20,602 nt of DNA, taken from positions 1 through 20,602 of IMG/VR virus record IMGVR_UViG_3300032516_000242; one strand, 5' to 3'. The position numbers were made by a program, and so were the translations under genes. The stretch comes from a virus. Below, piece after piece: positions 4,677 to 20,059 of this stretch (the first letter of the stretch is position 1; every line of letters begins with the position of its first letter). The notes under the pieces were generated by a model. That model worked only from the letters and a program-made list of their open reading frames with translations. It searched no databases and was not told the DNA's origin.

Positions 4677-5123
4677 ATGATAAAAGAAATAAATTTTGAA
4701 ACTATTCTTCCTATATGGAGGGATAAGTTATGGCCTGGTCGTGTATCTGCTATAGAGACTCATAGTGCTATGCTTCATCTCTATACAGAATATGATATGG
4801 GCAACTTTTTATTACCAGTATGGTATATTGGATATTATGAAGATAACGAACTAATAGGCGTCAATAGCGGGCATATGTGTGTCGATGGTAGTGCTCGCTC
4901 GCGCGGCCTGTGGATTATGCCGGAATTCCGCAAAAACGGTCGTGGAAAACAACTTCTAGGGGCAACGATAGCAAAGGCTAGGGAATATAATGCCTCTTCT
5001 ATATGGAGTTATTCGAGAAAAACATCTTGGCCAACATATAAATCAGTGGGATTTATATTGACCTCGGATTGGCAGCAGAGCGAGACCAGTGAAGCAAATG
5101 CATACTGCTATCTAGAATTATGA
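4677..5123 (+). CDS. GNAT-family N-acetyltransferase
   Basis: This 148-residue protein is predicted to transfer an acyl group from acyl-CoA to an amine. The GNAT core is visible: RGLWIMPEFRKNGRGKQLL contains the beta4 strand and the R-x-x-G-x-G/A-type pyrophosphate loop (motif A). SYSRKTSWPTYKSVGFIL matches motif B, with the usual aromatic-lysine-x-x-GF pattern. The start is set at 4677 because the in-frame ATG at 4659 overlaps the GATAAATA box; the longer form would add 6 residues. Its TGA overlaps the next ATG (ATGA), so it opens a tightly coupled five-gene operon. The minus-strand operon also begins with a GNAT gene. Confidence 0.82.
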   Translation: MIKEINFETILPIWRDKLWPGRVSAIETHSAMLHLYTEYDMGNFLLPVWYIGYYEDNELIGVNSGHMCVDGSARSRGLWIMPEFRKNGRGKQLLGATIAKAREYNASSIWSYSRKTSWPTYKSVGFILTSDWQQSETSEANAYCYLEL

Positions 5124-5962
5124 AATATCAGTTTGATCCATTTATTTTCTATTATGATGAGGTCGATTGGCCTATCTATGATTTTAGAACAGAATGTATT
5201 ATGGCTGCACATAAGGCAGCTTCAATGAATGTGAAAGGATTGCCTATTATTGTAACAATGAGTGGTGGACTTGATAGTGAGCTTATTGCTGAATCTTTAT
5301 ATCAGGCTAAAATACCATTCCGCGCTTTGATAGGTAAATTACAAGTACAGGTTGCTACAGAAACAATAATATTGAATGAACATGATTATAGTTATGCAGA
5401 AAAATGGTGTCATAATCATGGTATCGAAATAGAATATTGTAATTTAGATGTATATAAAAATGCACAATTATTGACAGAATATTCGATATTTTCTAAAGGG
5501 TTTTCGCCGCAATATGCATGGCATATGTATCTAATGAAATATGCCAGTGATAATGGGTATTTCTTTATTTCAGGGTTAGGAGATATAGATATTGTATTAA
5601 GAAATGGCGAATATTATTGTGCCGATACACAACGAGAATGGTCAATTGATATATTCTGTGAAACTTATAATCTAAATGGAATTATTAGGTTTGTAAAATT
5701 AGATTCCCGTCTAACAGCAGCTTTTCTGGAACTGAAATCAGTAAAGAGTCTAATGAAGGATAGGGCAGAAATTTTATTGCAACATAAACATCGGTGCTTT
5801 TCTGAGGTATTTCCGAATATGGAAAATAGACCTAAATTTACAGGATTTGAAAAGATACAAGAATGGGATTCTATACTCCGAAACTATATGAAGAAGCATA
5901 ATGGGCAACACGATACCATTTCGTATATACCTATATCTTACTTTCAAACAAAGGAACTATAA
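5120..5962 (+). CDS. PP-loop (asparagine-synthetase-type) protein 1
   Basis: This is a 280-residue protein. Residues 47-53 (MSGGLDS) form a complete PP-loop of N-type ATP pyrophosphatases, which activate a carboxylate or carbonyl as an adenylate for attack by nitrogen or sulfur. The following ELIAESL helix also fits. There is no N-terminal glutaminase domain, so ammonia or another nucleophile must come from elsewhere. The region around residue 150 (FISGLGDIDIVLRNG) may correspond to the second nucleotide-site motif of asparagine synthetases. It is coupled by overlap to the GNAT gene upstream (ATGA) and to the unknown downstream (TAATG). The substrate is unknown. Confidence 0.8.
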   Translation: MKYQFDPFIFYYDEVDWPIYDFRTECIMAAHKAASMNVKGLPIIVTMSGGLDSELIAESLYQAKIPFRALIGKLQVQVATETIILNEHDYSYAEKWCHNHGIEIEYCNLDVYKNAQLLTEYSIFSKGFSPQYAWHMYLMKYASDNGYFFISGLGDIDIVLRNGEYYCADTQREWSIDIFCETYNLNGIIRFVKLDSRLTAAFLELKSVKSLMKDRAEILLQHKHRCFSEVFPNMENRPKFTGFEKIQEWDSILRNYMKKHNGQHDTISYIPISYFQTKEL

Positions 5963-6543: not shown

Positions 6544-7403
6544 CCTATTGGAACGAAAAAGAAGATTTGCATATTCGCTTCTGGAATACGGATATATATG
6601 GAAGTTATTGGAAAATAAGACATGAAATTAATGAACAAGGATATCGTGGTGATGAATTACAATCAAGTAAGGTGATATTTCTTGGAACATGTGATATTAT
6701 GACTAATCTTACGGATAAGACACAGAGATGGTCAGAACTTGTCCATTCTAAATTACATGGAGATCAACCTTTTATTGCTTTGGGAACGGTTGCGTCGGGT
6801 TTGCCGACAATGATAAGACGATTATATTCGTATATACAAAATTTTGGTGCACCTGAATTGGTATACATGACTATACCTCGGTTCGATGGGTCTGAATTTG
6901 TAAATAAATCGGGTAATTGTTATAATGTAAGTTCCAGAGTAGGTTCAGCGAACTTCTGTAGGCGAGCAGACTTCGTTGATGATGAAGAACACACAGTTTG
7001 GCTTATGCAACTCGAAGCTAACAAGAAACTAAATAATATTCATAATATGCAATATATCCTCGAGGAGAGATTTGCATTTATTGAAACAATATGTAAAGCA
7101 AATTCAATTAAACTAAAATGGACATTTAATCCATCGGATGCTGCCATTACGGTATTGTATAGAAATCACCGAGTATTTGAACATATTAGTGACTTCATGA
7201 AAGATGCTTTTGTAGGTAATCCCGAAGTGAAAGATCAGATGTTTGATAGATCTATCGGCCCCGAAACACATAAAGAAATATATAATAAGTTTATTGGAGA
7301 TGAAAAGTGGAATTATAATAAACTATGTGAAGTAGCAGAATACAATTTCAAATGGTTGGGTCGCCAATACGGTAATGAATTAATTAAGATGGAAGAGTCA
7401 TGA
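6540..7403 (+). CDS. SGNH/GDSL-hydrolase-like protein with Cys at the nucleophile position
   Basis: This is a 287-residue protein. GYRGDE followed by KVIFLGTCDIMTNL (about residues 34-57) resembles block I of SGNH hydrolases (GYRG...LGDSxT), but the nucleophile position carries Cys51 rather than Ser. GTVASGLPTMIRRLYSYI fits the Gly-containing block, and DRSIGPETHKEI (Asp236, His244) may supply the acid and base. Family members hydrolyse or transfer acyl esters. No signal peptide is visible, so it acts in the cytoplasm. It is coupled to its neighbours by a GTATGA overlap upstream and ATGA downstream. A catalytically altered transferase, thioesterase or binding protein are all possible. Confidence 0.55.
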   Translation: MTYWNEKEDLHIRFWNTDIYGSYWKIRHEINEQGYRGDELQSSKVIFLGTCDIMTNLTDKTQRWSELVHSKLHGDQPFIALGTVASGLPTMIRRLYSYIQNFGAPELVYMTIPRFDGSEFVNKSGNCYNVSSRVGSANFCRRADFVDDEEHTVWLMQLEANKKLNNIHNMQYILEERFAFIETICKANSIKLKWTFNPSDAAITVLYRNHRVFEHISDFMKDAFVGNPEVKDQMFDRSIGPETHKEIYNKFIGDEKWNYNKLCEVAEYNFKWLGRQYGNELIKMEES

Positions 7404-8311
7404 TTTATACCTCCGAAAATAATTGGTATAGTTGGCAATATGGTGATGATGAATTATTCGGTAGGCAAACCGGCGGCCTCGCCTTTAAAACTCGATATTC
7501 TAAATATTATGGTCATGTTGATAATTTTGGTAATGAGTTGCAAAAGGCCGCAAAAAGTACACTAGATTATTTTCCGGATTTGCGACCGTCTATTCTTTTT
7601 AGCGGTGGCTCAGAAAGTGAAATCGTATTAAGGACGTATATTAATATTGGTGCAAATCCTAATGTTTACATAATAAGATATGAGGACGACATTAATATTG
7701 TTGATGTGAGTTATGCAATTGCTATATGTACTTCCCTTAATATTAAATATAATCTGATAGATTTTAATATTAAGAAATTTTACGAAAATGATGCAGAAAC
7801 TATTTCCGAACAAGCCCAAATTGATGTTCCTGCAGCATTACCGCAACTAAAATTTCTTAATTATGTAGAAGGATTGCCCATTTACTGTTCGGGCGACCAA
7901 TCATGGTATAGAACACATGATAATTATAATATTCGCGGAACCTGGATTCTTAAATGCTATGAGCACGATGCCGGATGGTCAAAGTATATTCGTTATATTA
8001 ATCGTCCAGCTATAGGAGAGTGGCTTAAATGGACACCCGGATTAGTGTTGTCTTATATCGACCTTAACTGGTTTAAAAAATTAATTAACGACGAATATTA
8101 TGGTAAATTGGGTGTTAATTCTACTAAACTAATAGGTTATAGAGAAGCATACCCAGATTTAATTGCCAGGCAAAAATTAACAGGAATGGAAACTATTCGT
8201 CCATTGATTGACGAATTTAAAGCATTTTTGGAAAAGAAATATCAGGGATTACCTTACCGTAATGAAGTTGTACGCACGCTCGAAGAACTTCGGAACGAAA
8301 TTACTGGATAG
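7400..8311 (+). CDS. PP-loop protein 2 with altered loop (SGGSES)
   Basis: This is a 303-residue protein. ILFSGGSESEIVLRTY (residues 65-80) aligns with the PP-loop of protein 1, but the canonical Asp is Glu72 (SGGSES instead of SGGLDS). A later YCSGDQSWYRTHD may match the second nucleotide-site motif. It may be a reduced-activity or regulatory partner of protein 1; the Glu could still bind Mg2+. It is coupled to the SGNH-like gene by ATGA and is the last gene of the plus operon, converging with the TctC gene (3' ends overlap by 11 nt). The family is inferred from motif and neighbours. Confidence 0.7.
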   Translation: MIYTSENNWYSWQYGDDELFGRQTGGLAFKTRYSKYYGHVDNFGNELQKAAKSTLDYFPDLRPSILFSGGSESEIVLRTYINIGANPNVYIIRYEDDINIVDVSYAIAICTSLNIKYNLIDFNIKKFYENDAETISEQAQIDVPAALPQLKFLNYVEGLPIYCSGDQSWYRTHDNYNIRGTWILKCYEHDAGWSKYIRYINRPAIGEWLKWTPGLVLSYIDLNWFKKLINDEYYGKLGVNSTKLIGYREAYPDLIARQKLTGMETIRPLIDEFKAFLEKKYQGLPYRNEVVRTLEELRNEITG

Positions 8312-9233
8312 GAACAAGTTTTAATTGATTTGTGAATTTTGTTCGCTCTTCCTGAGCAAATTTTCTAAAATCTTCGGAAGTGGTATTAGAAGGCATAGGA
8401 AATATGCCTACTTTCTTAAATTTTTCCTGTAACTGTTTATCTTCTAAGATATGAGTTAGCATATTATTGTGCGAAGCAACAGTTGTTTCATCTGTTCCGG
8501 GTCCTGTAACAAACCCAAACATAGTAGAATCCTCAAGTATATTGGGTACAAATTTTCTTAATTTAGGATACTCCTTAAGTTCGTCGGCATCGGCACCAGC
8601 ATTTGCCACGATACGAACGAGACCACTAGATACCTGAGATTGAATTGTAGTATATGGAACAAACGCATAATCTACGTGTCCGCCCATCACATCTATAACA
8701 GCGGGTCCGACACCCTTATATTCGGCAATAATGGCATTTTTAGAGTCTGTCTCTTTTATAAGAAGAGATGATAATATTCTTAAACCTAATGCGCCGGATG
8801 CAAATGATACAGGTTTGCTAGATTTTAAATCGCCTAGAACCTCTGGTAATGATTTTGTATTCTTTGGATTTGTAATTAATACATTTGGTGTAAATCCGAC
8901 CATTTTTATATATGTTAGAGTTTGTGGATCAAATTTTCTAACTTCGTCTAGACTTGGAATAATTGAATAGGCATACTGTGCCTGACTGGTAATGCAAATG
9001 AGATTTTTATCGTCGACCCTCGAGACACATTCATTCATACCGATTATACCACCAGCACCTGCCTTTATCTCAATTGCATTTTTATATCCTAATTTAATAC
9101 CGGTTTCGGAAATTAATTGACCCACGATATAATTTCCACCACCGGGTGGAAATCCAACAAGTATTGTAAGATTATCGGCATACGAATTCATTGCTAATAC
9201 CGTAAGCACAGCAAGGAGGATTTTTTTAATCAT
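8301..9233 (-). CDS. TctC/Bug-family periplasmic solute-binding protein
   Basis: This is a 310-residue protein, close to the usual length for the family. An N-terminal signal peptide (residues 1-20, ending NSYA) is followed by LVGFPPGGGNYIVGQLI, the hallmark first motif of tripartite-tricarboxylate-transporter binding proteins, and GAGGIIGMNECVSR, the second. GVGPAVIDVMGGHVDYAF fits the later conserved helix and ligand loop. Relatives bind carboxylates or small amides in the periplasm and deliver them to TctAB. The start is supported by TGGAGAATC just before the ATG. No membrane subunits are nearby, so it would use a host TctAB, act in sensing, or serve another role. It is unusual cargo for a phage. 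Confidence 0.9.
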   Translation of the reverse strand: MIKKILLAVLTVLAMNSYADNLTILVGFPPGGGNYIVGQLISETGIKLGYKNAIEIKAGAGGIIGMNECVSRVDDKNLICITSQAQYAYSIIPSLDEVRKFDPQTLTYIKMVGFTPNVLITNPKNTKSLPEVLGDLKSSKPVSFASGALGLRILSSLLIKETDSKNAIIAEYKGVGPAVIDVMGGHVDYAFVPYTTIQSQVSSGLVRIVANAGADADELKEYPKLRKFVPNILEDSTMFGFVTGPGTDETTVASHNNMLTHILEDKQLQEKFKKVGIFPMPSNTTSEDFRKFAQEERTKFTNQLKLVPIQ

Positions 9234-9322: not shown

Positions 9323-9640
9323 ATGATTCAATATACAAGATCTTATACAAGACCAAGTACATTAGTGGCCTGGTGGTTTGAAGTTACATTAGCTGTTCCT
9401 AGATCAGTCTTTCATGACAGGATGATAGCAGCATATTATGCTACAGGAAAAGTACTCTCAGAGGATACAGTAATATCTCCGGACGGATTAACACTTACCT
9501 GGACAGGAATCTGGGAAAGTGAAGCAGCATTTAACGAATATGATATTGATTCTGTCCTAAATACATATTGGGTACTTAAAGACGATTACAATACATCAGT
9601 GGATATCATTAAGGGTCCGCTAGGAATTCAAACAATTTAA
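9323..9640 (+). CDS. small unknown protein, possible dimeric alpha/beta-barrel fold
   Basis: This is a 105-residue protein starting MIQYTRSYTRPS. The start at 9323 is set by GGGAG 8-12 nt upstream; an earlier in-frame ATG (9254) would add an implausible leader across the promoter box. The alternating pattern TLTWTGIWESEAAFNEYDID is like the strand-helix units of antibiotic-monooxygenase or EthD-type dimeric barrels, but this is weak. It is the only plus-strand gene inside the minus-strand block, and its stop overlaps the stop of the PP-loop 3 gene. It could be a separately regulated member of the same pathway. Confidence 0.7.
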   Translation: MIQYTRSYTRPSTLVAWWFEVTLAVPRSVFHDRMIAAYYATGKVLSEDTVISPDGLTLTWTGIWESEAAFNEYDIDSVLNTYWVLKDDYNTSVDIIKGPLGIQTI

Positions 9641-10551
9641 ATTTTCGTTAAGCACGTAATTGGCTTATTCCTGAATTTATTTTTATTCATTGATCGCATA
9701 TACATTCTTATTTCATAATTAGATTCCAGTGAATCTTCCCAATTTGTAGTCTTGTAATTGAATATCAGGTCGGGCCAGAGAGTATCGACTAGAACGCGGG
9801 TATCTATTCTTTTATTTTCTTTAACCATTAGTGGATGATGAAAATAAGATCTTAATAATAACGGTGACGAAGCATAAAAGTACATTTCACATGCTCGGTG
9901 ATTCGTTAGAGCCCATTGTCTATAATAAACTTCTGTAATGCTTATCGGTATGCCATTATACGAACCGTTGCTATTAGCTAAAGATTCGTAATCCGGCCCA
10001 CTTTTTTGTGGATCACCCTCGCCGCCTATAATATAGGTATTAAATGGAATTCTTTCTAGTAGGTATGGCAGGCATAGATATGTTGGCTTTTCTGCCTGTA
10101 AATTTTTGTAATTTTTTTCTAGTACAGAATCAAATGCTTCTTCCTTTGATAAAGAAATTACATTGAGTTTTGTACCTAACTCGGCTGCTAGATCTTGAGA
10201 CATTTTTAATGCCCGTGAATTAATATTCCAAATATCTAGAAACCATAATTCAAATGGTATTCCTTGTGTTGCTGCTTCTCTAGCAATAATTTCACTGTCG
10301 GCCCCTGATATACAAATAGAGAGGGGCATGTTAGCCGAGCTGTGTAAATCTGTAATTGTTTTTCTTATTGCATACTTTAAATCAGATGTAATTAAGTCAT
10401 CATCTATAGTATATGTAAATTCGAAAGAACTGCCATCTATATTAGAAATTGGTGAAAAATATTCTTTATTAAATGACCACCGTACATGTCTTGGAACGGA
10501 TAAACACACGTTTCGAGAATCTTTGTTATCGTAATCTATTAGTCGAGTCAT
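9637..10551 (-). CDS. PP-loop protein 3, degenerate loop (SGADS)
   Basis: This is a 304-residue protein. ICISGADSEIIAREAA (residues 79-94) resembles the PP-loop of protein 1 (SGGLDSELIAESL) with one residue missing, so nucleotide binding may be changed. IIGGEGDPQKSGPDY later in the chain resembles the GEGADE-type second motif of asparagine synthetases. The lengths and loop positions of proteins 1-3 are similar, so they are probably paralogues. Its ATG overlaps the TGA of the AsnB-like gene upstream in the same operon (ATGA). No glutaminase domain is present. The substrate is unknown. Confidence 0.72.
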   Translation of the reverse strand: MTRLIDYDNKDSRNVCLSVPRHVRWSFNKEYFSPISNIDGSSFEFTYTIDDDLITSDLKYAIRKTITDLHSSANMPLSICISGADSEIIAREAATQGIPFELWFLDIWNINSRALKMSQDLAAELGTKLNVISLSKEEAFDSVLEKNYKNLQAEKPTYLCLPYLLERIPFNTYIIGGEGDPQKSGPDYESLANSNGSYNGIPISITEVYYRQWALTNHRACEMYFYASSPLLLRSYFHHPLMVKENKRIDTRVLVDTLWPDLIFNYKTTNWEDSLESNYEIRMYMRSMNKNKFRNKPITCLTKI

Positions 10552-11627
10552 TCTTTGTTAATTTCTATATTTTGAATTCTATATATTCTGTTGTCTTCGA
10601 TACCTAATGCATTATATTTGTATGTACCTGTTACAAGTATTCTGTATAGCGAAGGAACCTTTATCTTTGTTGTTGTATAATTACCTAAATCTATGTATTT
10701 TTCTATAAACAGTCTTGATGCCAGTTTATGATTATACCTGCTTGGCGGTGATCCCCATTTAGGCATATTTCCAAATAATGATAGAATTTGAAAATCTGGA
10801 GTATTGAAAAATGTATCAAATATTTTCAATTCAGAATCGTGTGTTATGACATCCAGAAAGTTAGTAAAGCACAATGTTCTTAATGCAACAGATTGCCATT
10901 TGCATGAAAAATTTAACCACCACCTCAGGTCTGCCATTGTGTTAAGTGGTACGGTAGCATTTTCTACTAAATTTCTTAGGACTCTATGTAAATATGGTTT
11001 TGCTGTTTCATTTACCTTACTGATAATAAACATTTTTTCAATATTATCTTCGTTTATTTCCTCGTCAAAGAAATCCATGACATGGTGTAGAAGTCCGCCA
11101 CCAAATAATTGATCGGCATTTTCCCCCATAACATATCGATCGACGGTTGTATTTGGGTTGTTTATATTGTCTAATGCCGTATTTGCTGATGTAAGTTTAA
11201 AATATGGAAGAATGATTTTATTCCAGAATTTTGGATTTTCGATAATAGAATGTTGGCTAGCAGCAATTGTAATTTGATTGTAATTTCCTATACCGTTTTG
11301 TATTGCAATCCAGAAACTAAGAACAACAACGGTACTATCCAGGCCACCACTATAGAATATAACTATATCTTTACTTTCCTTCAATATTTCCTTGGCTCTG
11401 TTAATACATACTTCATCATAGCGGAGATTAATCGGGCCTTCGGGCTTCGGGGGAATGCCATATAGTATTTTAGTCTCAAATGGGGTTTCTAATGCATTAC
11501 TTCTGTCGATCAGGCTTGCGTTAGGACTAACAATCTTAAATAATTCACAAAAATCTAATAATTTCTTGTTTGATTCCCGTTGAGCTTGTTCTTTTAAAAA
11601 CAAGGGCATATAATAGATAATTTTCAT
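10548..11627 (-). CDS. asparagine-synthetase-like (AsnB C-domain) PP-loop protein 4
   Basis: This 359-residue protein is the most canonical of the four. IVIFYSGGLDSTVVVLSF (residues 88-105) is a full PP-loop, and GENADQLFGGGLLHH (168-182) matches the G-E-G-A-D-E-L-F-G-G motif of asparagine synthetase and beta-lactam or lasso-peptide cyclase relatives. These enzymes adenylate a carboxylate and form an amide. The N-terminal ~85 residues are not a glutaminase domain (no Cys2). Starts and stops overlap with both neighbours (ATGA at 10548 and 11624), so it is translated with them. Amide formation with free ammonia or an amine donor is the most direct prediction. Confidence 0.85.
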   Translation of the reverse strand: MKIIYYMPLFLKEQAQRESNKKLLDFCELFKIVSPNASLIDRSNALETPFETKILYGIPPKPEGPINLRYDEVCINRAKEILKESKDIVIFYSGGLDSTVVVLSFWIAIQNGIGNYNQITIAASQHSIIENPKFWNKIILPYFKLTSANTALDNINNPNTTVDRYVMGENADQLFGGGLLHHVMDFFDEEINEDNIEKMFIISKVNETAKPYLHRVLRNLVENATVPLNTMADLRWWLNFSCKWQSVALRTLCFTNFLDVITHDSELKIFDTFFNTPDFQILSLFGNMPKWGSPPSRYNHKLASRLFIEKYIDLGNYTTTKIKVPSLYRILVTGTYKYNALGIEDNRIYRIQNIEINKE

Positions 11628-14977: not shown

Positions 14978-15085
14978 ATGAAAAGACTTTTGGAAATTCG
15001 TGCCGCGGAAGGCGGAGAAGATAGTGCCTTATTTACAAAGGATTTAGCACAAGCATACCAACGACATTTTGATCGCGTAGGCTGA
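14978..15085 (+). CDS. RF1-like release factor, N-terminal part ending at in-frame UGA
   Basis: From ATG 14978 (AAGAGGT just upstream), 35 codons read MKRLLEIRAAEGGEDSALFT and KDLAQAYQRHFDRVG, then TGA. LEIRAAEGGEDSALF is the start of the release-factor domain 2 signature (I-E-I-R-A-G-x-G-G-x-E-A-x-L-F in RF1). In bacterial RF1 the residue after this helix is a conserved Trp (GW or RW), exactly where TGA stands. Downstream the same frame continues through 8 codons into the rest of the factor at 15110. The first ~100 residues of normal RF1 (domain 1) are absent. Confidence 0.82.
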   Translation: MKRLLEIRAAEGGEDSALFTKDLAQAYQRHFDRVG

Positions 15086-15109
15086 ATTAATCACTTAGTA
15101 AAGGATACA

Positions 15110-15646
15110 TTGGGTGAAATCTATATAGAAGTATCTGGTATAGATTTATCCAAATTAGAGAATGAAGCAGGTGGTCATCGTATCCAACGAGTTCCGCCCA
15201 CAGAACGTAAAGGTAGAGTTCATACTAGCACCGTGACAGTAGCTATCACTGATCCTGAAATACAGGTAAAAGAGTATAAAGATTCAGACTTTAAGATTGA
15301 ATGGTATAGCGGCACAGGTGCTGGTGGACAGCATCGTAATAAACACCAAAATTCGTGCAGAATAACATATTTGCCCACTGGTCAGACTGCCACGGCACAA
15401 TGTCGTTCACGGCAAAATAGCCAAGAACAGGCGAAAGCAGCACTGTTAGAAACGCTTAATTCACACGCGGATAAAGAGTTTAAGATTGGTATAGATGCTA
15501 ATCGTAGGCAGCAAGTCGGATCTGGTATGCGTGGAGATAAAATTAGAACATACCGTTTTCAAGACGATGTGGTAAAAGATCATATCTCTGGAAAGTCAGC
15601 ATCAGTAAATAAGGTGCTAAAAGGATTTTTTGATTTAATGTGGTAA
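15110..15646 (+). CDS. RF1-like peptide chain release factor, main part (GGQ)
   Basis: This is a 178-residue part in the same frame as the fragment at 14978. GGHRIQRVPPTERKGRVHTS contains a P-x-T tripeptide (residues 29-31) at the codon-reading loop, so it is of RF1 type (UAG/UAA), not the SPF of RF2. GTGAGGQHRNKHQNS (residues 69-83) carries the GGQ that triggers peptidyl-tRNA hydrolysis. RQQVGSGMRGDKIRTYRFQD is the usual domain 4 region, and it ends in LMW. Translation could come from UGA readthrough (about 222 residues in total) or from reinitiation at TTG 15110, which has AAAGGA 5 nt upstream. Either form lacks domain 1, as in some short phage or rescue-type factors. Confidence 0.88.
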   Translation: MGEIYIEVSGIDLSKLENEAGGHRIQRVPPTERKGRVHTSTVTVAITDPEIQVKEYKDSDFKIEWYSGTGAGGQHRNKHQNSCRITYLPTGQTATAQCRSRQNSQEQAKAALLETLNSHADKEFKIGIDANRRQQVGSGMRGDKIRTYRFQDDVVKDHISGKSASVNKVLKGFFDLMW

Positions 15647-16199: not shown

Positions 16200-16340
16200 G
16201 TTGGTAGCGAAAGGGGAATGTAAGAGTACCGTATCGTAAGGGTGAAAGCCCCCTAGACCCGGTACCGCCAGCAATTATTGTTGTATGAAGTTGATAAAAA
16301 GAGGTTCCGGACGGGAGTTCGATACTCCCCATCTCCACCA
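16200..16340 (+). ncRNA. ssrA: permuted tmRNA, acceptor piece
   Basis: This half ends in CATCTCC-A-CCA (16330-16340) and carries a T-arm GGGAG-TTCGATA-CTCCC (16313-16329). CATCTCC pairs with GGGGATG at the start of the coding piece (16359-16365), with G-T at pair 3-70, the alanine identity signal required for charging. Because the CCA-bearing half precedes the 5' half, the gene is circularly permuted, as in alphaproteobacteria, cyanobacteria and some betaproteobacteria. Bases 16341-16358 are the intervening loop, with CCGTA/TACGG (16346-16360), removed to give two RNAs. The 5' end is placed from the promoter and is approximate. Confidence 0.87.
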
Positions 16341-16358
16341 ATTAACCGTACCAGATAC

Positions 16359-16572
16359 GGGGATGAAATGGCTTCGACGGGGCAATGAGTATTGAGATGG
16401 ACAACACGGTAGGCGATGACCGTAAATCAAGCAAAACTCGTAAATGCAAACGCAAATACAACCGAGACAGTAGCACTTGACCTATCAGCTTTGGCTGACA
16501 GCGATATGATGCTTCTAGCTGCCTAAGAAACAGCAGTCTCCGGGGTAGGATATACCTTGTAAACCAAAACAC
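16359..16572 (+). ncRNA. ssrA: permuted tmRNA, coding piece with tag
   Basis: GGGGATGAAATGGCTTCGAC (16359-16378) is the classic tmRNA 5' end. An ACGGT/ACCGT hairpin (about 16405-16423) may be part of the first pseudoknot. The open tag frame begins with GCA at 16446 and ends in TAA at 16524-16526. In ribosome rescue this RNA enters stalled ribosomes with SmpB (not seen here) and adds a degradation tag. The 3' end is not precise; the piece ends before the terminator at 16573. Confidence 0.87.
16446..16526 (+). other. tmRNA proteolysis-tag reading frame
   Basis: There are 26 sense codons: ANANTTETVALDLSALAD then SDMMLLAA, then TAA. It ends in LLAA, fitting the hydrophobic LAA-type C-terminal degron. 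It is longer than most bacterial tags (roughly 8-15, some longer). The first codon GCA (Ala) fits a normal resume codon; the exact resume point is inferred. Confidence 0.7.
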
Positions 16573-16598
16573 CATGGGCCTTCGGGCCCATTTTCTTT
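16573..16598 (+). terminator. rho-independent terminator after tmRNA
   Basis: ATGGGCC-TTCG-GGCCCAT is a 7-bp stem with a stable TTCG tetraloop, followed by TTTCTTTT. Confidence 0.95.
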
Positions 16599-16617
16599 TA
16601 CAAAATTATTTGTGAGA

Positions 16618-18271: not shown

Positions 18272-18658
18272 ATGTTTAATTTTTTCAAGTCCAAAAAGGA
18301 CACAACCGAAGCCAACACAACTACTTCGGAGGCTACAAAGCCAATCAAGGACATTCGTCCGCAGTGGAAAGCACTTGCTGCCGCCCGCGAAATCACCAAA
18401 GAAGATATTGCTGCACTCTGCATCTGGCGCGCCCTTTATAAAGAGCAGGTACCGGAAGGCGCAAAGACACGGCTGCATAAAGCATTCAAACCAATTACAA
18501 ATACGGTCAAACTTGAGAATGGTGCGTATCCTTACGGAGCATTAGAAACTGCGCTTAATTCAATCAAGTATTCTAATTTTGCAAAATGGTTGGATGCTAA
18601 TGAATTAAAACTATTGCTTGATGCAGCACGAACTACAAAGGATGCAGGAATAAAATGA
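18272..18658 (+). CDS. unknown soluble phage protein
   Basis: This is a 128-residue protein. AAGGAAG 7 nt upstream fixes the ATG at 18272. The N-terminus MFNFFKSKKDTTEANTTTSE is a short amphipathic lead followed by a Thr/Glu linker. The rest is alpha-helical (WKALAAAREITKEDIAALCI, FAKWLDANELKLLLDAARTT). No catalytic motif is recognised. Its TGA overlaps the ATG of the peptidyl-tRNA hydrolase gene (ATGA), so the two are made together. Its long leader RNA suggests regulated expression. Confidence 0.78.
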   Translation: MFNFFKSKKDTTEANTTTSEATKPIKDIRPQWKALAAAREITKEDIAALCIWRALYKEQVPEGAKTRLHKAFKPITNTVKLENGAYPYGALETALNSIKYSNFAKWLDANELKLLLDAARTTKDAGIK

Positions 18659-18981
18659 ATTCATACATTTATACTTTTATTAGGGAGGACCTTTCTCCCG
18701 AACAAAAGATTGTCCAACTCGGACACGCATGTCATGAAGCAGGCAAATTATTGAATCATTCGGAACATAAGCATGTTTCGAGTTTGATTTTACTTTCTGC
18801 CAAGGATGAACACGATCTCAAGATGATCTCTCGTAAGATTGATTGTGCTGGAATCGACCATCACATGTTCTTTGAACCGGATAATGATATGGGTTATAGT
18901 GCAATTTGTACCAGACCTGTCATTAGTGATCGAGAGCGTACATTTTTCCGTAAATGGGACTTGTATAGACACACCTATTGA
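18655..18981 (+). CDS. PTH2-type peptidyl-tRNA hydrolase
   Basis: This is a 108-residue protein. The PTH2 fold is indicated by YTFIREDLSPEQKIVQLGHA (strand, R-x-D-L, then the helix with K, Q and H), SLILLSAKDEHDLKMISRKI (strand and helix) and FEPDNDMGYSAICTRPV, matching E-P-D-x-G-x-x-A-I-A-x-x-P of the family. These enzymes release peptides from peptidyl-tRNAs that drop off ribosomes. PTH2 is mainly archaeal and eukaryotic but occurs in bacteria and phages; bacterial housekeeping Pth is unrelated. It fits with the tmRNA, the release factor and the nearby tRNA. Translationally coupled to the gene upstream. Confidence 0.8.
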   Translation: MNSYIYTFIREDLSPEQKIVQLGHACHEAGKLLNHSEHKHVSSLILLSAKDEHDLKMISRKIDCAGIDHHMFFEPDNDMGYSAICTRPVISDRERTFFRKWDLYRHTY

Positions 18982-19006
18982 CATTAAATAGGAGAGCCCT
19001 TAAAAT
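18978..19006 (+). promoter_or_regulatory. sigma70-like promoter for the CTA tRNA
   Basis: TTGACA (18978-18983), 17 nt, TAAAAT (19001-19006). Predicted start near 19013, 4 nt before the tRNA. GAGCCC (18994-18999) and GGGCTC (19007-19012) flank the -10 and could be an operator or a weak hairpin terminating the PTH2 message. Confidence 0.7.
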
Positions 19007-19016
19007 GGGCTCACAT

Positions 19017-19091
19017 GCGCTGGTAGCTTAATGATAAAGTACGAGCCTCTAAAACTCAGGGTTGTGGGTTTGATTCCCACTCAGCGCACCA
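19017..19091 (+). tRNA. tRNA with anticodon CTA (amber suppressor)
   Basis: The acceptor GCGCTGG/TCAGCGC ends in A73-CCA. The D-arm is GCTT/AAGT, the variable loop GGGTT, and the T-arm GTGGG-TTTGATT-CCCAC. All segment lengths are canonical, which fixes positions 34-36 as CTA (19049-19051) in loop CTCTAAA, the same loop as classical amber suppressors. The anticodon stem CGAGC/ACTCA has C-A mismatches at 27-43 and 31-39. It would insert an amino acid at UAG; which one cannot be told from the sequence. Confidence 0.82.
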
Positions 19092-19102
19092 TACAATTTA
19101 TT

Positions 19103-19588
19103 ATGACACGAGTAAACTTAGTTCCTGTTGAAGATTTAGCCGATCAACATCTGTTCGCCGAGTGGCGCGAACTCAAAATGATTCCAGCGAAGGTCAGAAA
19201 GCTCTGGCTGTCTAATACTGTTAATATGATAAGCATGAGGGTAAATTCGGTTCCGGAATATACAATGTCTACAGGACATGTAACATTCTTCTATGATAAA
19301 ATAGAATGGTTATATCGGCGCCATCTGGCACTGACCGAAGAACTTGAAAAACGAAACTTTAATATTTCCAATTATGATTCTTACTCGGGATTCTATCATG
19401 GTATACCGGGTGAACTTATCGGCAATTGGAAACCAACAATTAGGGAAATTAAAATAAATGTTGGTCGAATATCCGAACGGTTACATCAACGGCCAAATTG
19501 GTATAGATATTATGGCGATATTATGCCACCCGAATTCTTCATAGAGAAATACACCCAACAATTGCTTGTTGACACAATTATTGCCTAG
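19103..19588 (+). CDS. denV: T4 endonuclease V-like pyrimidine-dimer DNA glycosylase
   Basis: This 161-residue protein (T4 DenV has 138) excises UV-induced cyclobutane pyrimidine dimers and nicks the abasic site. MTRVNLVPVEDLADQHLFAE then WREL aligns directly with the T4 N-terminus, keeping Thr2 (nucleophilic alpha-amine after Met removal), Arg3 and Glu23. TGHVTFFYDKIEWLYRRHLA and RISERLHQRPNWYRYYG match the middle and C-terminal DNA-contacting parts. About 15 extra residues follow at the end. The start at 19103 is fixed by this alignment. The ATG is 12 nt after the tRNA CCA, without a Shine-Dalgarno sequence. It ends in TAG. Confidence 0.95.
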   Translation: MTRVNLVPVEDLADQHLFAEWRELKMIPAKVRKLWLSNTVNMISMRVNSVPEYTMSTGHVTFFYDKIEWLYRRHLALTEELEKRNFNISNYDSYSGFYHGIPGELIGNWKPTIREIKINVGRISERLHQRPNWYRYYGDIMPPEFFIEKYTQQLLVDTIIA

Positions 19589-19597
19589 TGTTATACT
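19569..19597 (+). promoter_or_regulatory. strong sigma70 promoter for the HD gene
   Basis: TTGACA (19569-19574), 17 nt, TATACT (19592-19597), overlapping the 3' end of denV. AAGGAG and the ATG at 19619 follow. Confidence 0.85.
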
Positions 19598-19618
19598 ATA
19601 ATCACTAAGGAGAATTCT

Positions 19619-20059
19619 ATGAAACGCGGCGAAATGCTCAACAAAATGCTTGTTTTGGTAACAACCCAATTTGACGGCGTTTTTGATAGGGGTGGTGTTC
19701 CCTATGTTCTGCATTGTCTGAAGGTTATGCACTATCTAAAATCTGACGATGAGGAACTTCAGTGTATCGCACTGGGTCACGACTTGGTTGAGGACACAGA
19801 TGTAACTTACTTTGATTTACGCGAACTTGGATTTAGTGATCGTGTAATCGAAGGTATCCGTGCCATGACTAAGGTACCCGGGGAAACCAACGATGAATAC
19901 ATGGTTCGCATCAAAGCTAACCCCGATGCTATTCGCACCAAACTTAGTGATTTGCGTCACAACAGTGATATTCGTCGTTTGAAGGGTGTTACCGCTAAGG
20001 ATGTGGCACGCATTGAAAAGTACCATAAGATGTATCTTGAGCTAAGGGATCTTCTTTAG
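19619..20059 (+). CDS. RelA/SpoT-type HD-domain hydrolase (possible ppGpp hydrolase)
   Basis: This is a 146-residue single-domain protein. His32 in PYVLHCLKV, HDLVEDT (residues 54-60, the HD and downstream ED pair), and KLSDLRHN (residues 108-115, the last Asp and Asn) reproduce the metal site and signature of RelA/SpoT and Mesh1-type ppGpp hydrolases. There is no synthetase, TGS or ACT domain, so it is a small alarmone hydrolase type. It would lower (p)ppGpp and keep the host translating; other nucleotide substrates are possible. It has its own sigma70 promoter and AAGGAG site. Its 3' end overlaps the convergent endonuclease gene by 18 nt. It ends in TAG. Confidence 0.88.
   Translation: MKRGEMLNKMLVLVTTQFDGVFDRGGVPYVLHCLKVMHYLKSDDEELQCIALGHDLVEDTDVTYFDLRELGFSDRVIEGIRAMTKVPGETNDEYMVRIKANPDAIRTKLSDLRHNSDIRRLKGVTAKDVARIEKYHKMYLELRDLL

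Follow-up and report, generated by a model that had tools for sequence, protein, structure and literature searches.

A CUA-anticodon tRNA as candidate suppressor of the stop codons that interrupt a PTH2-like hydrolase gene in jumbo phages

We analysed a stretch of viral DNA of 20,602 nucleotides (positions 1 to 20,602 of the IMG/VR record IMGVR_UViG_3300032516_000242; hereafter the window), focusing on a putative amber-suppressor tRNA gene and on the gene upstream of it, which codes for a protein resembling the peptidyl-tRNA hydrolase PTH2. The tRNA gene occupies positions 19017-19091 on the plus strand, has CTA as its anticodon (19049-19051) and encodes the CCA end. An earlier note, made from the letters alone, had placed a CTA-anticodon tRNA here, and tRNA gene prediction bears this out: both ARAGORN and Rfam (RF00005, 55.8 bits, E 8e-10) call a complete tRNA. 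The anticodon stem, CGAGC/ACTCA, contains the two C-A mismatches that the note had described, at positions 27-43 and 31-39. The PTH2-like gene lies at 18655-18981 on the same strand and encodes 108 residues; the window copy is free of in-frame UAG codons. Overlapping its stop codon is a sigma70-type promoter-like site, TTGACA-N17-TAAAAT (18978-19006, plus strand, 11/12 match); by chance, each shuffle of that stretch would yield about two promoter-like sites scoring above 9/12. Matches of at least 11/12 recur at the 3' end of the gene upstream of the tRNA in 9 of 10 loci of the window's clade. The proposal that the tRNA has its own sigma70 promoter is consistent with the presence and recurrence of this site.

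The product of 18655-18981 is predicted to be a PTH2-like protein with a peptidyl-tRNA hydrolase fold. Its structural model has a predicted local distance difference test (pLDDT) value of 89, and the top Foldseek matches of the model are PTH2 structures, with template-modelling (TM) values of about 0.7-0.78. At the Pfam PTH2 cut-off of 23 (PF01981), two relatives score above the threshold, L126 with 28.1 bits and L124 with 25.3 bits, and the window protein itself has no Pfam match. A search with the window protein returned seven relatives, and six of the seven have a CTA tRNA, as does one more phage, L011. In the window-clade loci examined, the CUA tRNA begins 354-962 bp after the PTH2 start, the distance in the window being 362 bp. 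UAG codons also occur inside PTH2: one in G008, another one shared by L146 and L169, which come from two separate samples, and a third in L008. Given the synteny, and the internal PTH2 UAGs of two sister phages, we take the window tRNA to belong to the PTH2 system.

When cultured phages were searched with tblastn, PTH2 homologues proved to be unannotated or truncated in several records, because a UAG sits right after the start codon. The leaders read MTH-UAG-NDKTW in Serratia phage BF, MAQ-UAG in CBB and GAP32, MAH-UAG in XbC2 and Kaldavass, MT-UAG in Acinetobacter phage ME3 and ML-UAG in Salmonella phage Arash. PTH2 genes with such a start UAG, one to three codons standing between it and the ATG, occur in jumbo phages that infect Serratia, Cronobacter, Pectobacterium, Erwinia, Xanthomonas, Acinetobacter, Salmonella, Stenotrophomonas and Tenacibaculum, and a search with a profile brought in many IMG/VR contigs of this ATG-x-UAG layout. 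The stop is codon 2-5 at 27 loci representing 15 dereplicated lineages (codon 3 in 10 of the 15), and a Shine-Dalgarno-like sequence stands ahead of most AUGs of the UAG-bearing genes. At position +4, directly after the start UAG, a purine is found in all 15 lineages, as compared to 16 of 43 (37%) real TAG stops in GAP32, BF and ME3; purines at this position raise amber suppression (PMC6266110). Divergence by codon position in PTH2 is 7/4/29. Two PHROGs families, phrog_34073 (77 aa) and phrog_26054 (46 aa), resemble pieces of PTH2 split at the UAG.

The UAG-bearing PTH2 genes are closely associated with CUA tRNAs. Among the 28 records with such a gene that are large enough to judge, ARAGORN found a CTA tRNA in 26; one further tRNA was assigned by hand (G024) and one is partial (G021). 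The complete genomes of RaK2 and Hallingskeid have a PTH2 without UAG and gave no match to the CTA-tRNA pattern. The association also holds in the opposite direction. When contigs of at least 45 kb were picked by a CUA tRNA alone, 19 of 29 contained PTH2, versus 2 of 24 contigs picked by an Asn tRNA (Fisher 2e-5, or 2e-4 after dereplication); the Asn-tRNA control replaced an Arg-tRNA control that comprised two contigs only. Taking all contigs of this tRNA-first scan, the start UAG is present in 14 of the 24 PTH2 genes. Tenacibaculum phage pT24, which was reached only via its HD protein, has the sequence MK-UAG-ITKN before a PTH2-HD fusion and an annotated tRNA-Sup.

A whole-genome comparison of GAP32 with BF identified PTH2 as the shared gene with a start UAG and the adjacent, overlapping HD gene as the shared gene with an internal UAG. 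Annotations of the aligned phages split the HD gene at this same UAG. Its divergence by codon position is 1/1/15 before the UAG and 16/5/53 after it; third positions thus dominate on both sides, and we therefore conclude that the gene is not decaying. The HD assignment is based on a visible HD-type motif and on the ME3 protein, which matches Pfam weakly, at 16 bits where the cut-off is 22. ME3, Arash and L161 have the gene in one piece; in L176 and LR745206 it bears a start UAG of its own, and in XacN1, RAS14 and L178 it forms HD-PTH2 fusions, where the UAG lies ahead of the HD part (leader MK-UAG in XacN1). No HD homologue was found among the window-clade loci examined. Gene callers thus systematically cut short or split the UAG-interrupted PTH2 and HD genes.

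According to these sequence data, which cover the tRNA, its linkage, the conserved UAGs in their context, the purifying selection seen before and after the stop, and the lack of general recoding in the compared genomes, the window tRNA is probably a dedicated amber suppressor, part of a widespread jumbo-phage pair of CUA tRNA and PTH2-like hydrolase that gates a PTH2/HD module. The hydrolase of the pair is often accompanied by an HD partner or fused to HD, and in most pairs a UAG in a suppression-favouring context, usually two or three codons past the AUG, breaks the PTH2 and often the HD frame. In the mechanism we propose, the phage tRNA, presumably charged by a host enzyme, would read these UAGs in competition with release factor 1 (RF1), and full-length PTH2 would be made only when the charged tRNA outcompetes this factor. 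How much of a peptidyl-tRNA-clearing enzyme is made, and when, may thereby depend on the suppressor level relative to RF1. Several observations weigh against a dedicated suppressor of PTH2. The window PTH2 and most of its clade have no UAG despite the presence of a CUA tRNA, and the same applies to L151, L158, L173/174 and several loci from the tRNA scan. Moreover, 10 of the 29 CUA-tRNA contigs of at least 45 kb lack a PTH2 match, the CUA tRNA of G021 is a partial match that ARAGORN rejects, and the hand-assigned one of G024 has C33. Finally, the CUA tRNAs resemble different tRNA families, and the inserted amino acid is perhaps not conserved.

Alternatively, the UAG could end a tiny leader peptide (ATG-x-UAG), with PTH2 being re-initiated downstream at a non-standard codon and the CUA tRNA serving something else. 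In the ten lineages with UAG at codon 3, the layout indeed equals a two-codon minigene, and expression of the lambda bar minigene accumulates peptidyl-tRNA under Pth deficiency (PMC8012679), offering a natural link to a peptidyl-tRNA hydrolase. However, there is mostly no ATG, GTG or TTG between the UAG and the first beta strand, and UAGs that lie inside the HD gene, or inside the PTH2 of G008, L146 and L008, cannot be leaders. As a leader peptide would also leave the CUA-tRNA linkage, the +4 purine bias and the choice of UAG over UAA or UGA unexplained, we regard this explanation as unlikely. If the tRNA is instead the dedicated suppressor of the PTH2/HD module, the resemblance of the ATG-x-UAG leader to toxic minigenes that release peptidyl-tRNA, the Pth substrate, might point to a feedback role, which is speculative.

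A different target was implied by the earlier note, which listed seven genes ending in TAG (at 2383, 7400, 13584, 14008, 15657, 19103 and 19619) and expected suppression to extend some of them. Every one of the seven does end in TAG, and one of them, a pyrimidine-dimer glycosylase gene at 19103-19588 (plus strand; Pfam Pyr_excise), continues in frame into the next gene at 19619, such that suppression could yield C-terminal variants of ordinary proteins. UAG is still a real terminator in this phage group, as the note had stated: in the fetched records of the group (385, 369, 166, 136, 134 and 61 kb), TAG terminates 12.7% of the non-overlapping open reading frames (ORFs) of at least 100 aa. The expected extensions, however, did not hold up in comparison. 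Conserved coding past the stop of any UAG-ended gene was absent from the relatives compared, tandem stops after UAG are not in excess, and the continuation from 19588 to 19619 is not kept among relatives, the G008 homologue ending in TGA. A readthrough extension of 19103-19588 is therefore possible but not conserved. Likewise, the authors of the XacN1 study saw no similarity beyond its 18 UAG stops (PMC5852040). Lengthening of ordinary genes as the function of the suppressor is thus improbable. A scan for stops within the conserved frames of relatives returned one clear in-gene TAG, that in the PTH2-like gene of G008; an initial scan of all frames for aligned stops gave too much noise to be used. 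Early UAGs in other conserved genes of the window clade showed no enrichment relative to TAA or TGA, and a repeat of this comparison at the level of loci gave only PTH2 and gene ends. Within the 20.6-kb window, a fragment of the genome, no in-frame UAG was found in a conserved gene. Conserved coding across TAG, which the note had envisaged, does exist in the PTH2-like gene of relatives, together with its HD partner, but was not found in the window and concerns a gene that the note had not named.

The tRNA might also act outside translation, as a decoy for an anticodon nuclease, or might be a decaying gene. The C-A mismatches in the anticodon stem and the weak thermodynamic fold would suit such a fate, and RNAfold alone did not recover the cloverleaf of the window tRNA, a failure that is common for tRNAs and not decisive. 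Against it, the anticodon loop YTCTAAA is invariant across eight homologous tRNAs that otherwise show only moderate similarity and vary widely; the CUA anticodon is therefore under selection. In addition, tertiary pairs read from the sequence are compensated (A15-U48, and A19-U56 replacing G19-C56), which argues that the gene is maintained, the CCA end is encoded and the promoter-like site is conserved. We thus consider a role outside translation very unlikely. The tRNA fold, the CUA anticodon and the loop kept in the eight homologues support the earlier suggestion of an amber-suppressor tRNA gene.

From PTH2-linked loci, we collected 31 distinct CTA tRNA sequences. Their best matches, mostly at 60-77%, are to tRNAs for Met, Phe, Lys, Asn, Arg, Trp and others, which suggests several origins for one function. 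The attempt to derive the inserted amino acid from the nearest tRNA family was dropped, as the CTA tRNAs have no consistent parent. The ARAGORN label tRNA-Pyl, which follows from the anticodon, was rejected. tRNA-Pyl has a single base between the acceptor and D stems, a 3-nt variable loop and a six-pair anticodon stem, whereas the window tRNA has two bases (UA) at the former site, a 5-nt variable loop and five stem positions.

That late genes are written in genetic code 15 (UAG = glutamine), as in crAss-like and Lak phages, is the least credible alternative: the phage does encode a release factor as well as a CUA tRNA, but many genes end in UAG, the two largest genomes gain no more than about 3 points of ORF coverage when TAG is read as sense and the greatest gain among the long records is from 0.83 to 0.88 (the G001 fragment), a clear in-frame UAG is confined to PTH2, and the release factor is of the RF1-like type (PxT), expected to read UAG, and not an RF2. 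By these measures, the genome of the window phage is not recoded.

The release factor gene is itself interrupted. Located at 14978-15646 on the plus strand, with Pfam PCRF/RF-1 matches on both halves and an NCBIfam prfA match, it contains an in-frame TGA at 15083-15085. The predicted protein has the PxT motif, as PPT, and GGQ, and lacks domain 1; the TGA stands exactly at the conserved Trp site of bacterial RF1. This in-frame TGA is carried by 45 of 45 homologous phage genes; a Gly codon stands before it and A or G after it in 28 of 30, and elsewhere TGA is an ordinary stop. The gene may thus encode another termination factor gated by a stop codon, perhaps of no less interest than the tRNA, and its product would compete with the CUA tRNA at UAG. 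More tentatively, the CUA tRNA and the PTH2/HD module could form a self-adjusting translational circuit, in which the suppressor would open the UAG gate and the enzyme for clearing aborted peptidyl-tRNAs would be made in proportion to stop-codon override, while the neighbouring RF1-like gene is itself UGA-gated. In distant RF1-like genes of the huge phages L240 (LR756502), L242 (LR745206) and L245 (LR756501), in-frame TGAs lie at other sites or at extra ones, which may reflect recoding of TGA.

The window holds a further ribosome-rescue component, a permuted transfer-messenger RNA (tmRNA) at 16248-16617 on the plus strand, called by ARAGORN and by Rfam (tmRNA_permuted, 131 bits, with an additional beta_tmRNA match). 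Several related phages also have permuted tmRNAs, whose tag peptides vary. Downstream of the glycosylase gene, 19619-20059 (plus strand) encodes an HD-type protein like the RelA/SpoT hydrolase domain (NCBIfam, E 6e-8), possibly a phage (p)ppGpp hydrolase. The genes at 5120-5962, 7400-8311, 9637-10551 and 10548-11627 share SGG(L/S)(D/E)S(E/T)-like motifs reminiscent of PP-loop/asparagine-synthetase-type enzymes; three of the four were scanned against Pfam and had no match. The product of 8301-9233 on the minus strand appears to resemble a tripartite tricarboxylate receptor (TctC/Bug); such proteins are common in betaproteobacteria, which hints at the host. In the records G005 and G003, a DnaJ-like gene is preceded by one whose product, ending in GRITYRF, looks like translation initiation factor IF-1.

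Orphan CUA suppressor tRNAs of the same kind as that of the window have been described in the standard-code jumbo phages XacN1 and RsoM2USA (PMC8504454), XacN1 having two such genes per terminal repeat and no reported target (PMC5852040). The difference lies in the target proposed here, an interrupted gene start; the HD-PTH2 gene of XacN1, with MK-UAG ahead, is laid out as in the PTH2 system. In code-15 phages (crAss-like, Lak), a phage CUA tRNA likewise overrides UAG (PMC9523058, PMC10879173), but there UAG is sense in many genes, whereas here it works as a normal stop and interrupts a single small module. The prfB gene for RF2 offers a parallel in being a translation-factor gene gated by an in-frame stop (UGA) near its start (PMC12421855); it uses +1 frameshifting, in contrast to the zero-frame readthrough by a dedicated tRNA proposed here. 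PTH2-fold proteins with a proposed ribosome-rescue role appear in a survey of jumbo phages (PMC7824862); in the passages of that survey consulted, neither the UAG nor the CUA-tRNA link was found, and the word 'suppressor' is absent from its text. The literature searched, whose coverage leaves out subscription papers and preprints, contained no report of a UAG-gated PTH2.

The suppressor tRNAs of standard-code jumbo phages had no known target, which the XacN1 paper calls an open question. With a conserved, UAG-gated candidate target in cultured phages including GAP32, BF, CBB, ME3, Arash, XacN1 and pT24, the question of what these suppressors act on becomes testable at once. Should the self-adjusting circuit prove true, stop-codon gating would be a general means by which giant phages control their own termination and rescue factors.
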